Shown piece after piece: positions 37,153 to 43,201 of a stretch of 64,000 nt of DNA (positions within the stretch are counted from its first letter, which is position 1; every line of letters starts with the position of its first letter). Below the pieces are notes generated by a model. The model was not told the DNA's origin and did no database searches. It saw nothing but the letters and a program-made list of their open reading frames with translations. Both the position numbers and the translations under genes were made by a program. Origin of the DNA: an uncultured Oscillospiraceae bacterium (GTDB lineage: Bacteria > Bacillota > Clostridia > Oscillospirales > Oscillospiraceae). The stretch is from assembly GCA_947627715.1 (NCBI GenBank), contig CANQXK010000011.1, forward strand, positions 1-64,000, read 5' to 3'.

Positions 37153-39045
37153 TTACGCCTTTTTGGGCGGTAAACGCTTCAGAACAAGTCCGCCGATGGG
37201 CGGTGTGCGCACCACCACGGAATATTTCTTCCCGTGGGCGGGGATCTTCTCCGCCTCCAAAAGCTCAGGATTGACCCTCCCGGAGCCGCCGAAGCGCTGG
37301 TCGTCGGAGTTGAAGATCTCCGCGTAGGTGCCCTTTCTGGGCACGCCGATGCGGAAGCCCTCGTAGACCTCCGGCACGAAGCACAGAAGGCACACCAGGT
37401 CGTCCGTGGGCTTTTTGCCGTGGCGGATGAAGGTGAGGATGGACTGGTCCCTGTCGTCCGCGTCCAGCCACTCGAAGCCCTCCCAGGAGAAGTTCTTCTG
37501 CCACAGGGCCTTCTCTTTAAGGAACAGGTGGTTGAGCTCCTTCACATACTGCTGGTGCTTGCGGTGGGCGTCGTAGTCCAGAAGGAACCACTCCAGCCCC
37601 TCGTAGTAGCGCCACTCGATAAACTGGGCGATCTCCGCGCCCATGAAGTTGTGCTTGGCGCCGGAGTGGAGCGTCTGATAGAGCATCAGCGATCTCAGTC
37701 CCGCGAACTGCCGCCAGTAGTCCCCCGGCATCTTGCCGATGAGGGACGCCTTGCCGTGGACCACCTCGTCGTGGGAGAGGGCCAGGACGAAATTCTCGTT
37801 GAAGGCGTACATCATGGAGAAGGTCAGTCCCCCGTGGTTGGCGGGCCTGTAGGGGAAGTCGGTCTTCATATAGTTGAGGGTGTCGTGCATCCAGCCCATG
37901 TCCCACTTGAAGTGGAAGCCCAGGCCCCCGTCGTCAGGCGGATAGGTAACCAGCGGCCAGGCCGTGGACTCCTCCGCGATCATCATAACGTCCGGGTGCT
38001 CCCGCGCCACGGTGGAGTTGATCCTCTGCACCAGGGCGATGGAGTCGTAGTCGTGCTCCGTGCCGTCGGCGGCGTGCTTCTTCAGGCGCTCGTCGTCGAT
38101 GCCGAAGTTTAAGTAGAGCATACTGGTGACGCCGTCCACGCGGATGCCGTCGGCGTGGTAGCGTTCCAGCCAGAAGATGGCGTTGGAGATGAGGAAGGAG
38201 CGGACCTCCCCCTTTTTCACATTGAATTTATAGGTGCCCCACTGGGGATGGGAGCCGCCCTCGTAAAGAGGTTCGCCCACAAATTCCCCCAGGCCGTGGG
38301 CGTCCCGGCAGAAGTGCGCCGGTGCCCAGTCCAGGATCACGCCCAGACCCGCCCTGTGGGCCTCGTTCATAAAGTACTGGAAGTCCCCCGGCTCGCCGTA
38401 GCGGGAGGTGGGGGCGTAGTAGCCGGTGAGCTGATAGCCCCAGGAGCCGTCAAAGGGGTGTTCCATCACGGGCATGAGTTCAAGGTGCGTGTAGCCCATC
38501 TCCACAGCGTAAGGCACCAGCGTCTCGGCAAGCTCCCGGTAGGAGAGCACCGTGCCGTCCTCGTGACGCCGCCAGGAGCCGAGATGCACCTCGTAGATGT
38601 TCAGGGGCTTTTCCCGCCTGTCGCCTTTGGCGCGGGCGGCCATCCACTTCTGATCGGTCCAGCGGAAAGCGTCCAGGTCCGCCAGCCTCGAAGCCGTCTC
38701 AGGGGGCTTTTCGCAGAAATACCCGTAAGGGTCGGCCTTGTATAAAAGCCGCCCGTCCCTGGCCTCCACCACGTATTTGTAGCTCTCCCCGGCGTTGAGT
38801 CCGGGCATGAAAATGTGCCATACGCCGGCGTCCGCGGCGGGTTCCATGAAGTGGCGCTGGGGGTCCCAGTCGCACCAGGAGCCTGTCAGCCGCACGGAGC
38901 GCGCGCCCGGCGCCCACAGGTTGAAGCTCCATCCCTCCACGCCGTTCTCCACGGCCCGGCGCGCCCCGAATTTTTCAAAGGCGTGGGTCCATGTGCCCTC
39001 GGCAAATTCCCAGCTCTCGTCGCTGGTAAGTATCTTCTCAGCCAT
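37153..39045 (-). CDS. glgB: 1,4-alpha-glucan branching enzyme (GH13)
   Basis: Makes alpha-1,6 branches in glycogen. The 630-residue protein has an N-terminal CBM48 domain (~30-125, FNLWAPGARSVRLTGSWCDWDP) and a GH13 core: YEVHLGSWRR, ELMPVMEHPFDGSWGYQ, DWAPAHF, GIRVDGVTSMLY (nucleophile), MIAEESTAWP (acid/base) and LSHDEVVHGK. The ATG at 39045 follows GAGGGTG. A GTG three codons earlier lies in the SD. First gene of the operon glgB-glgP-glgC-glgD-glgA-fusion-pgi, with a good promoter ~100 bp upstream. Confidence 0.96.
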   Translation of the reverse strand: MAEKILTSDESWEFAEGTWTHAFEKFGARRAVENGVEGWSFNLWAPGARSVRLTGSWCDWDPQRHFMEPAADAGVWHIFMPGLNAGESYKYVVEARDGRLLYKADPYGYFCEKPPETASRLADLDAFRWTDQKWMAARAKGDRREKPLNIYEVHLGSWRRHEDGTVLSYRELAETLVPYAVEMGYTHLELMPVMEHPFDGSWGYQLTGYYAPTSRYGEPGDFQYFMNEAHRAGLGVILDWAPAHFCRDAHGLGEFVGEPLYEGGSHPQWGTYKFNVKKGEVRSFLISNAIFWLERYHADGIRVDGVTSMLYLNFGIDDERLKKHAADGTEHDYDSIALVQRINSTVAREHPDVMMIAEESTAWPLVTYPPDDGGLGFHFKWDMGWMHDTLNYMKTDFPYRPANHGGLTFSMMYAFNENFVLALSHDEVVHGKASLIGKMPGDYWRQFAGLRSLMLYQTLHSGAKHNFMGAEIAQFIEWRYYEGLEWFLLDYDAHRKHQQYVKELNHLFLKEKALWQKNFSWEGFEWLDADDRDQSILTFIRHGKKPTDDLVCLLCFVPEVYEGFRIGVPRKGTYAEIFNSDDQRFGGSGRVNPELLEAEKIPAHGKKYSVVVRTPPIGGLVLKRLPPKKA

Positions 39046-39090
39046 CGTTTTCACACCCTCTATGGTAATAATGGTGGTCCCCGGTCTCTC

Positions 39091-39391: not shown

Positions 39392-41536
39392 ATGAAAAAA
39401 TTCATCCTTTTGACCCTTGCGCTTTCCCTGCTCCTCTCCCTGGCCGCCTGCTCCCGCCCCGGCGGCGGAGAGACCGCAGACAACAGCGAAACCGAAAACA
39501 ACAGTGAAACCGCAAACGGCAGTGAAACCGCAAACGGCAGCGAAACCGTGAACGGCGGCGAGCCCACGACCGGCGGCGGGACCGTAAGCGGCCTTCCCAC
39601 GGACGTGGTCATCCCCGACGGGGTCCGCATCGGCCTCTCCGACGAGGGCGTCACCGTGGACGGCCAGCCCCTCGCCGAGGACAGGACGGACGTGTACACC
39701 GCCCGCGACATCGTCTACTACGAGGCCGGCCACGATTTCACCTACGGCGAGGGCGGTGAGGCGGACGAGCACTCCCGCGATGAGGCCGAGGCTCACACGG
39801 TGGTCCACATCGCCTCCCCCGGCACCTACGTCCTCTCCGGCTCCCTCTCCGCCGGGCAGATCGCGGTGGACCTGGGGGAGGACGCGGAGGACGACCCTGA
39901 GGCCGTGGTGAACTTGGTGCTGGACGGCGTGGACATCACCTGCACCGTGGCCCCCGCCGTCATCTTCTATAACGTCTACGAGTGCGGGGACAAGGACGAC
40001 CCCAAAGCGGAGGTGGACACCTCCGCCGCCGGGGCCAACGTCTACATCGCCGACGGGTCGGTGAACACGGTGAACGGCTCCTATGTTGCACGCATCTACA
40101 AATCCGTTGAACTCAGCGAGGACGGCACCGAGGTGGTGGACAGCAAGAAGCTCCACAAGTACGACGGGGCGTTCTACTCCAAAATGAGCATGAACGTCAC
40201 CGGCAACGACGGCGTTCTCAACATAAACGCCCAGAACGAGGGCCTGGACTCCGAGCTGCACCTGACCGTAAACGGCGGCGTTATCAACATCGTCTCCGGC
40301 AACGACGGCATCAACACCAACGAGGACGGGGTGTCCGTCACCACCGTCAACGCCGGGGCGCTCACCGTCACCGTCACCGGCTCCACCGGCGAGGGGGACG
40401 GCATCGACTCCAACGGGTGGCTGGTCATCAACGGCGGCACGGTCCGCGCTTACGCCTGCTCCACCTCCGGGGACGCGGGCATCGACTCGGACATGGGCAT
40501 CATCCTGAACGGCGGCGAGATCGTGGCCACCGGGAATATGCTGGACGCCATCGACGGCGCCAGCACCCAAAAGTACGTGACCTTCAGCCTGCAAAACAGC
40601 GCCGGGGGGACGGAGTACGCCCTGAAGGACGCGGAGGGGAACGAGCTGATGGCCGTCCCCACCGTGAACCGCTTTTCCATCCTGCTGGTCTCCGCCCCCG
40701 CCCTCACCGACGGCCTGTACGCCCTCTATAACGGCTCCACCCTGGCGGCCTCCGCCGAGACGGGCGCGGGCGGCATGGGCTTCCCCGGCGGCATGGGCGG
40801 CCACGGGGGCGGCCGGTTCCCCGGCGGCCAGGACGGCCAGCCCCCGGAGGGCTTCGACGGCCAAACGCCTCCCGAAGATTTCGACGGCCAGACCCCGCCG
40901 GAGGGGTTTGAGGGCCGAACGCCTCCCCAGGGCTTCGACGGCCAGACGCCCCCCGCGCTCCCCGGCGGGGACCCGGCCACCGGGGAAACCGTCCCGGGGG
41001 AGGACCTCCCCGGCGAGGCCCTTGTCAACGTGACGGACTACATTCCTGACATTTTGGTGGACCTGCGCTACGCCACAGACAGGAACTTCACCGGCCAGGT
41101 CATCTACGATTTCACCGACGCCCGCCTCCGCTGCGGCACGGTGCGGAAGCTGGCCCAGGCGGAGGAGGCGCTTCTTGAGCAGGGCCGCACCCTGAAGATA
41201 TGGGACGCCCTGCGGCCCGTCTCCGCCCAGTACGCCCTGTGGGAGGTCTGCCCCGACGCCCGGTACGTCTCCGACCCCACAAGGGGCTATTCCAACCACA
41301 GCCGGGGCAACACCGTGGACGTCACCCTGGTAAGCTCCGACGGCTCGGAGCTGCCCATGCCCAGCGACTTTGACTGCTTTACCGCCGCCGGCGACCGGGA
41401 CTATTCCGACGTCCCCGCCGATGCCGCGGAGAACGCCCGCCTTTTGGAGGAGGTCATGACCTCCCACGGCTTTGTGGGCTACAGCGGCGAGTGGTGGCAC
41501 TTCACCGACGAGGACAGCTACGACGTGGTCCTGTGA
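39392..41536 (+). CDS. lipoprotein: DUF4353-like carbohydrate-binding beta-helix fused to VanX-type D-Ala-D-Ala dipeptidase
   Basis: A 714-residue exported lipoprotein: signal peptide MKKFILLTLALSLLLSLAAC with the lipobox Cys last, then an Asn/Glu/Thr repeat linker. Residues ~60-450 match the DUF4353 (Cthe_2159-like) parallel beta-helix: repeated NGGVINI, DGINTNEDG, GDGIDSNG and DAGIDSDMG turns. A Gly-rich and PPEGFDGQT-repeat linker (~455-530) follows. Residues ~540-714 are an M15D VanX-like zinc dipeptidase with YATDRNFTG, LRPVSAQ, zinc ligands His636, Asp643 and His703, and base Glu700 (EWWHF). The expected reaction is D,D-dipeptide hydrolysis outside the cell. The start follows GAGG, spacing 12. 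No van genes are nearby. Confidence 0.88.
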   Translation: MKKFILLTLALSLLLSLAACSRPGGGETADNSETENNSETANGSETANGSETVNGGEPTTGGGTVSGLPTDVVIPDGVRIGLSDEGVTVDGQPLAEDRTDVYTARDIVYYEAGHDFTYGEGGEADEHSRDEAEAHTVVHIASPGTYVLSGSLSAGQIAVDLGEDAEDDPEAVVNLVLDGVDITCTVAPAVIFYNVYECGDKDDPKAEVDTSAAGANVYIADGSVNTVNGSYVARIYKSVELSEDGTEVVDSKKLHKYDGAFYSKMSMNVTGNDGVLNINAQNEGLDSELHLTVNGGVINIVSGNDGINTNEDGVSVTTVNAGALTVTVTGSTGEGDGIDSNGWLVINGGTVRAYACSTSGDAGIDSDMGIILNGGEIVATGNMLDAIDGASTQKYVTFSLQNSAGGTEYALKDAEGNELMAVPTVNRFSILLVSAPALTDGLYALYNGSTLAASAETGAGGMGFPGGMGGHGGGRFPGGQDGQPPEGFDGQTPPEDFDGQTPPEGFEGRTPPQGFDGQTPPALPGGDPATGETVPGEDLPGEALVNVTDYIPDILVDLRYATDRNFTGQVIYDFTDARLRCGTVRKLAQAEEALLEQGRTLKIWDALRPVSAQYALWEVCPDARYVSDPTRGYSNHSRGNTVDVTLVSSDGSELPMPSDFDCFTAAGDRDYSDVPADAAENARLLEEVMTSHGFVGYSGEWWHFTDEDSYDVVL

Positions 41537-41557: not shown

Positions 41558-41583
41558 AAGGCGACGGGAGTTGAACCCGCGCC
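41558..41583 (-). other. tRNA T-arm-like fragment
   Basis: Read on the minus strand, GCGGG-TTCAACT-CCCGT forms a canonical 5-bp T-stem and 7-nt T-loop, followed by CGCCTTG and then a T-tract. No anticodon arm, 5' acceptor or CCA is found upstream. It may be a tRNA remnant, an old integration site or chance. Confidence 0.3.
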
Positions 41584-41599
41584 GCCATACCCTGCGTCC

Positions 41600-41652: not shown

Positions 41653-41681
41653 GTGACAAGCCCGTTTCCGTATGCTACAAT
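41653..41681 (+). promoter_or_regulatory. sigma-A promoter of glpK
   Basis: GTGACA (41653-41658), 17 bp, TACAAT (41676-41681), 32 bp before the glpK ATG. Confidence 0.72.
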
Positions 41682-41713
41682 ATGACCAATACAGCATGAA
41701 AGGGGCGCGCTCC

Positions 41714-43201
41714 ATGGAAAAATACCTCTTAGCGTTGGACCAGGGGACCACCAGCTCCAGGGCGATCCTTTTTGACACGAAGCAGACCATCATCGGCGTC
41801 TCCCAGCGGGAGTTCACCCAGTATTTCCCCCAGGACGGCTGGGTGGAGCACGACCCGGAGGAGATCTGGCGCACCCAGCGCGGGGTGATGGAGACGGTGA
41901 TCGCCGAGTCCGGCGTCTCCCCGGCGGACATCGCCGCCATCGGCATCACCAACCAGCGGGAGACCACCATCGTGTGGGAGAAGTCCACCGGGAAGCCCGT
42001 GTACAACGCCATCGTCTGGCAGTGCCGCCGCACGGCGGACATCGTGGAGAAGCTGGTGGCTGGCGGCCTTGAACCCCACATACGGGCCGTCACGGGGCTT
42101 GTGCCGGACGCCTATTTCTCCGCCACGAAGATCAAGTGGATCCTGGACAACGTCCCCGGCGTCCGGGAGAAGGCCCGGCGGGGCGAGGTCCTGTTCGGCA
42201 CCGTGGACACCTGGCTCCTGTGGAAGCTCACCGGCGGGGCGGTCCACGCCACCGACCTCACCAACGCCAGCCGCACGATGCTCTTTGACATCCACCGGCT
42301 TTGCTGGGACGAGACGCTTTTGAAGGTGCTGGACATCCCCAGGGCCATGCTGCCGGAGGTGCGCCTGAGCAGCGAGGTTTACGGCTATGCGGACATCGGC
42401 GGCAGAAGGATCCCCGTGGCGGGCATCGCCGGCGACCAGCAGGCGGCCCTTTTCGGGCAGGGCTGCTTTGACGCCGGGGACGCGAAAAACACCTACGGCA
42501 CCGGCTGTTTCCTCCTGATGAACACCGGGAAGACCCCCTGCGAGAGCAAAAACGGCCTGGTCACCACCGTGGCCGCGGGCCTACCCGGAAAGGTCACCTA
42601 CGCCCTGGAGGGGAGCGTCTTTGTGGGCGGCGCGGTGATCCAGTGGCTCCGGGACGAGCTGCGCATCCTCACCGAGGCCCGCGAGGCCGAGACCCTCGCC
42701 CTCTCGGTGCCGGACAACGGCGGCGTGTATCTCGTGCCCGCCTTCACGGGCCTTGGCGCGCCCCGCTGGGATATGTACGCCCGCGGCGCCATCCTGGGCC
42801 TCACCCGCGCCACCACCCGCGAGCATATCGTCCGCGCCGCCCAGGAGTCCATCGCCTACCAGGTGGCGGAGCTGGTGGAGGCCATGGAGGCGGACACCGG
42901 CATCCCCATGGAGTCCCTGCGGGCCGACGGCGGCGCCAGCCGGGACAAATTCCTGATGCAGTTCCAGGCGGACGTGACAGGCAAGACCGTCCGCCGCCCG
43001 GTGATCCGGGAGACCACGGCCCTGGGCGCGGCGTACCTGGCCGGCCTTGCCATCGGCGTGTGGAGCGACACCGCGGAGCTGAAAACCTTGTGGCGGGTGG
43101 ACGCGGAGTTTGAGCCGGGCCTGGACGCCCCCGCCCGCCAGCGGCTCATGAGCGGCTGGCGCAGGGCCGTGGAGCGCGCCTCCGGCTGGGCCAGGCACTG
43201 A
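41714..43201 (+). CDS. glpK: glycerol kinase
   Basis: FGGY-family enzyme that phosphorylates glycerol to sn-glycerol 3-phosphate. The 495-residue protein starts [21 protein letters not shown] and shows the [34 protein letters not shown] and [16 protein letters not shown] family motifs. The ATG at 41714 follows GAAAGGGG; the longer frame from 41672 overlaps the promoter. It is alone between two terminators. No glpF or glpD is adjacent, so it may serve uptake systems elsewhere; its product is also the PlsY acceptor. Confidence 0.97.

Follow-up and report, generated by a model that had tools for sequence, protein, structure and literature searches.

We identified a gene in an uncultured Oscillospiraceae bacterium from the rabbit gut (genome G000) that joins a Cthe_2159-type beta-helix to a complete M15D peptidase domain within a single lipoprotein-type polypeptide. 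The gene lies on the plus strand at positions 39392-41536 of the window, the 64,000-nucleotide stretch of DNA analysed here, and encodes 714 amino acids; its boundaries are exact. The encoded protein comprises a lipoprotein signal, a beta-helix (Pfam accession PF14262), a disordered linker and the M15D domain, and the fusion is confirmed as real. All of its parts are known. The combination of beta-helix and M15D seems undescribed: as the first-pass annotation supposed, no account of it was found in the literature searched, with most subscription journals and the InterPro architecture tables outside coverage.

The N-terminal signal (MKKFILLTLALSLLLSLAAC, residues 1-20, positions 39392-39451) ends in the lipobox LAAC, assigned by reading the sequence together with an alignment of 12 orthologues. 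The putatively lipidated Cys20 is invariant in all 12, in agreement with the lipid anchor predicted at the outset. A low-complexity Asn/Ser/Glu/Thr/Gly spacer (residues 21-74, 39452-39613) follows, with low pLDDT over most of residues 15-67 and with lengths that vary among orthologues. Residues 75-456 (39614-40759) form the beta-helix and its C-terminal strands; the family PF14262 is now named Cthe_2159, DUF4353 being the older name. A Gly/Pro-rich linker of about 85 residues (457-541, 40760-41014), with pLDDT below 50 over residues 459-535, leads to the predicted D-Ala-D-Ala dipeptidase domain (residues 544-714, 41021-41533, pLDDT mostly above 90). In the orthologue alignment, a Gly/Pro-rich tail is also the end of enzyme-free orthologues.

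Pfam scores above the gathering cut-offs and matches of predicted folds both uphold the initial assignment of the C-terminus to M15D and of the N-terminus to PF14262. Peptidase_M15 (Pfam accession PF01427) matches residues 544-708 (E=2e-31, 109.7 bits, cut-off 27), and Cthe_2159 matches residues 136-378 (E=2.1e-20, 73.5 bits, cut-off 25.8). An AlphaFold2 model built from 35 aligned sequences (mean pLDDT 73.9, pTM 0.56) has two mostly confident domains, with residues 459-535 disordered between them. The N-terminal part of the model resembles Cthe_2159 (4peu; Z 25.9, rmsd 2.6 over 238 residues, 26% identity) and the C-terminal part resembles VanX (1r44; Z 23.5, rmsd 2.2 over 171 residues). The best non-VanX M15 structures listed (LdcB, VanY, VanXY and Ply500) reach Z 9.8-10.9. 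The helix also matched phage tailspikes, which was put down to the general beta-helix fold. The model predicts no contact between the two domains (pTM 0.56), and a coupling of beta-helix and peptidase is therefore an assumption.

The zinc-binding and catalytic motif of M15D, H-x6-D ... E-x-x-H, is present. Counting along the alignment to 1r44, the zinc ligands His636 (41297-41299), Asp643 (41318-41320) and His703 (41498-41500) correspond to VanX His116, Asp123 and His184, and the catalytic base Glu700 (41489-41491) to VanX Glu181. These four residues, picked out from the letters alone as the VanX set, are invariant in 35 of 35 aligned relatives. Two residues of the substrate pocket are equally invariant (35/35): Arg608 (41213-41215), equivalent to VanX Arg71, and Asp661 (41372-41374), equivalent to VanX Asp142, which from the VanX structure we take to hold the amino group of the substrate. 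Sequence and modelled fold together identify the C-terminal part as a VanX/DdpX-type domain whose site is intact and probably binds zinc.

DdpX is the best NCBIfam match of this domain, aligned over 164 residues with almost no change in length. The scores are 154 bits for DdpX (NF007557, cut-off 176) and 73 bits for VanX (NF033115, cut-off 320). Since both lie below the curated cut-offs, the domain is a relative of DdpX and VanX and an equivalog of neither, and its sequence appears DdpX-like rather than VanX. The original label of VanX-type D,D-dipeptidase thus holds for a VanX/DdpX-type domain and not for VanX proper.

The fusion occurs in seven of the 34 genomes of the genus (G000, G001, G002, G011, G012, G018 and G027), and in all seven its gene adjoins glgB and glgP in a glgP-glgB-DUF4353 locus. 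In the window, the divergent neighbour glgB (glycogen branching enzyme, 37153-39054, minus strand) anchors this locus, which is syntenic across 16 congener loci. Downstream lies glpK (glycerol kinase, 41672-43201, plus strand), also the other flank in many congeners; both neighbours stand outside the mechanism proposed below. Ten congeners (G005, G006, G014, G016, G019, G021, G024, G030, G032 and G033) encode an enzyme-free orthologous beta-helix at the same glg locus. The nearest of these, in G006, is 84% identical over the N-terminal part and ends without M15D; tblastn found no M15D remnant behind its stop codon, and the G006 genome has no PF01427 match at all. Because orthologues with and without the enzyme share one locus, the tail of the beta-helix protein has gained or lost M15D. 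The dN/dS of the M15D domain is 0.15-0.50 in every pair of fused genomes, which indicates that the domain is maintained. An assembly or frameshift artefact is ruled out by the same in-frame join in seven genomes, the conserved flanks and this purifying selection.

In a tree of glgP and glgB, six fused genomes group together, with G006 beside them and G027 apart; in the M15D tree, all seven fused domains form one group with weak support (61/87). The origin may be one fusion followed by losses, transfer, or two fusions. The fusion gene is the sole PF01427 match in its own genome. A GTDB scan returned 393 relatives, and among the best 80 of these a beta-helix is present in six, all of them congeners; fused relatives with a named source are uncultured Oscillospiraceae from rabbit-gut 'Lapin' assemblies. 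Among the long-frame candidates read or scanned from 400 genomes of the family and 391 of the class, a search that may miss rarer cases, M15D has other partners and no beta-helix fusion outside the genus was found. The best explanation is a lineage-specific fusion: the beta-helix lipoprotein is the older partner, and its tail acquired an exported dipeptidase domain of a kind common in Clostridia.

Accounts of VanX-type enzymes usually treat them as cytoplasmic components of vancomycin resistance, and the first-pass annotation took them to be normally lone and cytoplasmic, so that a location outside the cytoplasm looked unusual. That view does not survive comparison with the family: among the best 80 of the 393 relatives, the majority stand alone as exported proteins of 214-320 amino acids from gut Clostridia, and a simple pattern assigns a lipobox to many of them. 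An entire exported branch of VanX-type enzymes occurs widely in gut Clostridia; the novelty of the fusion lies in the combination with a Cthe_2159 helix, not in export. Lone M15D lipoproteins of Oscillospiraceae and Lachnospiraceae (for example, L112 and L120) have peptidase domains 59-70% identical to that of the fusion but are about 215-320 amino acids long and lack the beta-helix.

M15D domains of this family have several other partners recognised by Pfam. BlaR1-type M56 proteins end in M15D at three loci (L118:2920-5516, L132:3279-5516 and L107:21-2324), and at L118 the gene overlaps one for a BlaI/MecI-like repressor. Further partners are PGA_cap (L128, L167 and L216), M14 (L173 and L217), NADase_transloc (L165) and SH3_3 (L113, L117 and L196). 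YkuD (L,D-transpeptidase-like) is joined to M15D in lipoproteins of other Clostridia, above the Pfam cut-off in one (L213:1666-3279) and just under it in two (L211:2310-3827 and L212:147-1601). Two membrane-anchored HAD-type phosphatase-like proteins, one of them with DUF3089, have a VanX-like M15 domain at their end (L190:2231-4054 and L191:2263-4947). Three congeners (G025, G026 and G028; L082:5221-6684, L083 and L084) encode an M15D lipoprotein with an extra C-terminal part of about 180 residues, which in L082 matches no Pfam family.

A second home for the domain was found within the genus itself. In four congeners (G024, G030, G010 and G017), an anti-sigma-like membrane protein ends in M15D of the same subfamily, 65-68% identical to that of the fusion and in the same clade. 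At this second syntenic locus, the gene for the membrane protein directly follows those for an ECF sigma factor and a tRNA-dihydrouridine synthase; the window's genome has the same dus-sigma-anti-sigma locus (L197) without M15D. At L078:5581-7325, and likewise at L079, L080 and L081, the ECF sigma gene overlaps the gene for the zf-HC2 anti-sigma-like protein, which on its extracytoplasmic side ends in an intact M15D domain; an anti-sigma-like N-terminus here takes the place of the beta-helix. Within one genus, the same enzyme domain is thus found on two carriers, a probable glycan-binding lipoprotein and an anti-sigma factor. None of the 34 genomes has both homes, for which the chance probability, given seven and four of 34, is about 0.38, and we therefore do not claim mutual exclusion. 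That several envelope scaffolds, two classes of signal transducer among them, share exported M15D is a more interesting point than the single fusion. Exported M15D may be a portable module of gut Clostridia, carried by glycan-binding lipoproteins, ECF anti-sigma factors, BlaR1-like transducers and wall enzymes, with the beta-helix fusion as one member; tentatively, hydrolysis or sensing of wall-derived D-Ala-D-Ala at the surface would then add to wall recycling, or to envelope-stress signalling, a general layer that has so far gone undescribed.

For the fusion itself, we favour a surface lipoprotein that recycles D-alanine, a proposal that, taken whole, we rate at about even chances. The lipid on Cys20 would tether the exported protein to the outside of the membrane, the beta-helix would dock onto a polysaccharide, and the flexible linker would carry the zinc dipeptidase. 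The enzyme would hydrolyse free D-Ala-D-Ala, or close dipeptides containing a D-residue, that wall turnover or the lysis of neighbours sets free, and the D-alanine product would be taken up or recycled. A scavenging or recycling role is suggested because an exported enzyme would meet only D-Ala-D-Ala freed by lysis or wall turnover; surface dipeptide scavenging is plausible. If the enzyme is active, extracellular D-Ala-D-Ala would be a nutrient or signal worth processing.

Salmonella PcgL is a periplasmic D-Ala-D-Ala dipeptidase (in part PMC7933661). It is likewise a VanX-type dipeptidase outside the cytoplasm, a likeness of description; unlike the fusion, it is a single-domain Gram-negative protein without lipid anchor or beta-helix. 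DdpX is a further precedent for dipeptide specificity (PMC6403190), and these two, together with the VanX-like pocket and the invariant amino-group residue, suggest the same specificity here. DdpX/VanX-type dipeptidases (MEROPS M15D; VanX 1r44) share their fold, zinc triad, catalytic Glu and pocket residues with the fusion domain, whereas the fusion is an exported lipoprotein with the enzyme at the C-terminus of a two-domain protein. On the other side of the linker, Cthe_2159 of Clostridium thermocellum (4peu/4phb) shares the beta-helix fold at 26% identity but has no peptidase domain. For Cthe_2159 proteins, binding to cellulose and to polygalacturonic acid is documented and calcium sites are known (PMC6712302), and by analogy the beta-helix may bind a glycan; with so distant a match (26% over 238 residues), the particular ligand may not carry over. 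The wall- and envelope-type partners of relatives (YkuD, PGA_cap, M14 and SH3) count for the proposal, and the life of sister species without the enzyme domain at the glg locus counts against it. So do the NCBIfam scores below the equivalog cut-offs and the surroundings of the gene: in the window and the congener loci, its neighbours are glycogen genes and glpK, and genes for wall recycling or uptake are absent there.

The main rival is that the enzyme trims longer wall peptides, as a D,D- or L,D-carboxypeptidase or a muropeptide peptidase, while the beta-helix keeps it bound to peptidoglycan or to a secondary wall polymer. Wall peptides are found outside the membrane, where the enzyme is predicted to be, and YkuD and SH3 domains are fusion partners in relatives. 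The precedent is ZrlA of Acinetobacter baumannii, a membrane-anchored zinc M15 peptidase, as predicted for the fusion, that cleaved diacetyl-Lys-D-Ala-D-Ala better than D-Ala-D-Ala (PMC7812711). The precedent stands although the active-site motif differs: ZrlA is a single-domain protein with a QxH motif and a preference for acylated Lys-D-Ala-D-Ala, whereas the fusion has ExxH and two domains (PMC7812711). The domain is also far closer in fold to VanX than to VanY, LdcB or VanXY, and the Asp142 equivalent, the expected binder of a free amino group, is invariant; we consider trimming unlikely. Similarly doubtful is the view that M15D is a portable module captured by any surface scaffold, with no coupled function beyond the display of an exported dipeptidase. 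One M15D clade does occur on a beta-helix, on an anti-sigma factor and as lone lipoproteins, its presence varies among sister species at a syntenic locus, and the disordered linker joins domains without predicted contact; against this, both domains are kept under purifying selection in seven genomes.

In a signalling role, D-Ala-D-Ala or wall peptides would be the envelope-stress signal that M15D senses or removes; the transducer versions would signal, and the beta-helix version would be their surface counterpart without a signalling function. This role draws on M15D being the extracytoplasmic end of an anti-sigma factor encoded by a gene overlapping that of an ECF sigma factor, and on BlaR1-like M56 proteins that end in M15D, one with a gene overlapping a BlaI-like repressor gene (L118). 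However, the beta-helix version lacks any transmembrane or signalling segment, and the intact catalytic residues of the transducer versions mean that these may be mere enzymes, so we regard this role as quite improbable; the anti-sigma and BlaR1-like versions make the idea directly testable. Least probable, and only barely credible to us, is glycopeptide tolerance in which the fusion supports a vanG-type D-Ala-D-Ser wall. The window's genome does encode a vanG-like ligase (479 bits, cut-off 495) adjoining a vanT-like racemase (489.6 bits, cut-off 460), with no VanY or VanXY match in that genome, but tolerance of this kind needs a cytoplasmic dipeptidase, the fusion carries a lipoprotein signal, and no van gene lies near it.

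Surface scavenging of D-Ala-D-Ala, our preferred reading, also agrees with the first-pass annotation in setting the gene apart from ordinary vancomycin resistance. No vanHAX genes lie beside the fusion, and an exported enzyme would be unable to drain the cytoplasmic D-Ala-D-Ala pool; as it could not serve the classical role of VanX, a part in resistance is unlikely. A vancomycin-resistance gene at the fusion locus was rejected, van genes being absent from the neighbourhood in the window and the congener loci. Such genes in metagenomes should not be read as vancomycin resistance. The vanG-like D-Ala-D-Ser/D-Ala ligase gene and the following gene for a vanT-like membrane serine racemase are on another contig than the fusion (L203:1791-4963, contig C10 of G000).

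A tRNA-like stretch just behind the fusion gene was checked and is not a tRNA. It is a copy (window positions 41558-41590) of a dispersed repeat of about 28-32 nucleotides that resembles a tRNA T-arm (AAGGCGACGGGAGTTGAACCCGCG...). Further copies are present in the genome and at L062, L063, L204 and L208, and some loci have inverted pairs about 180-280 bp apart.
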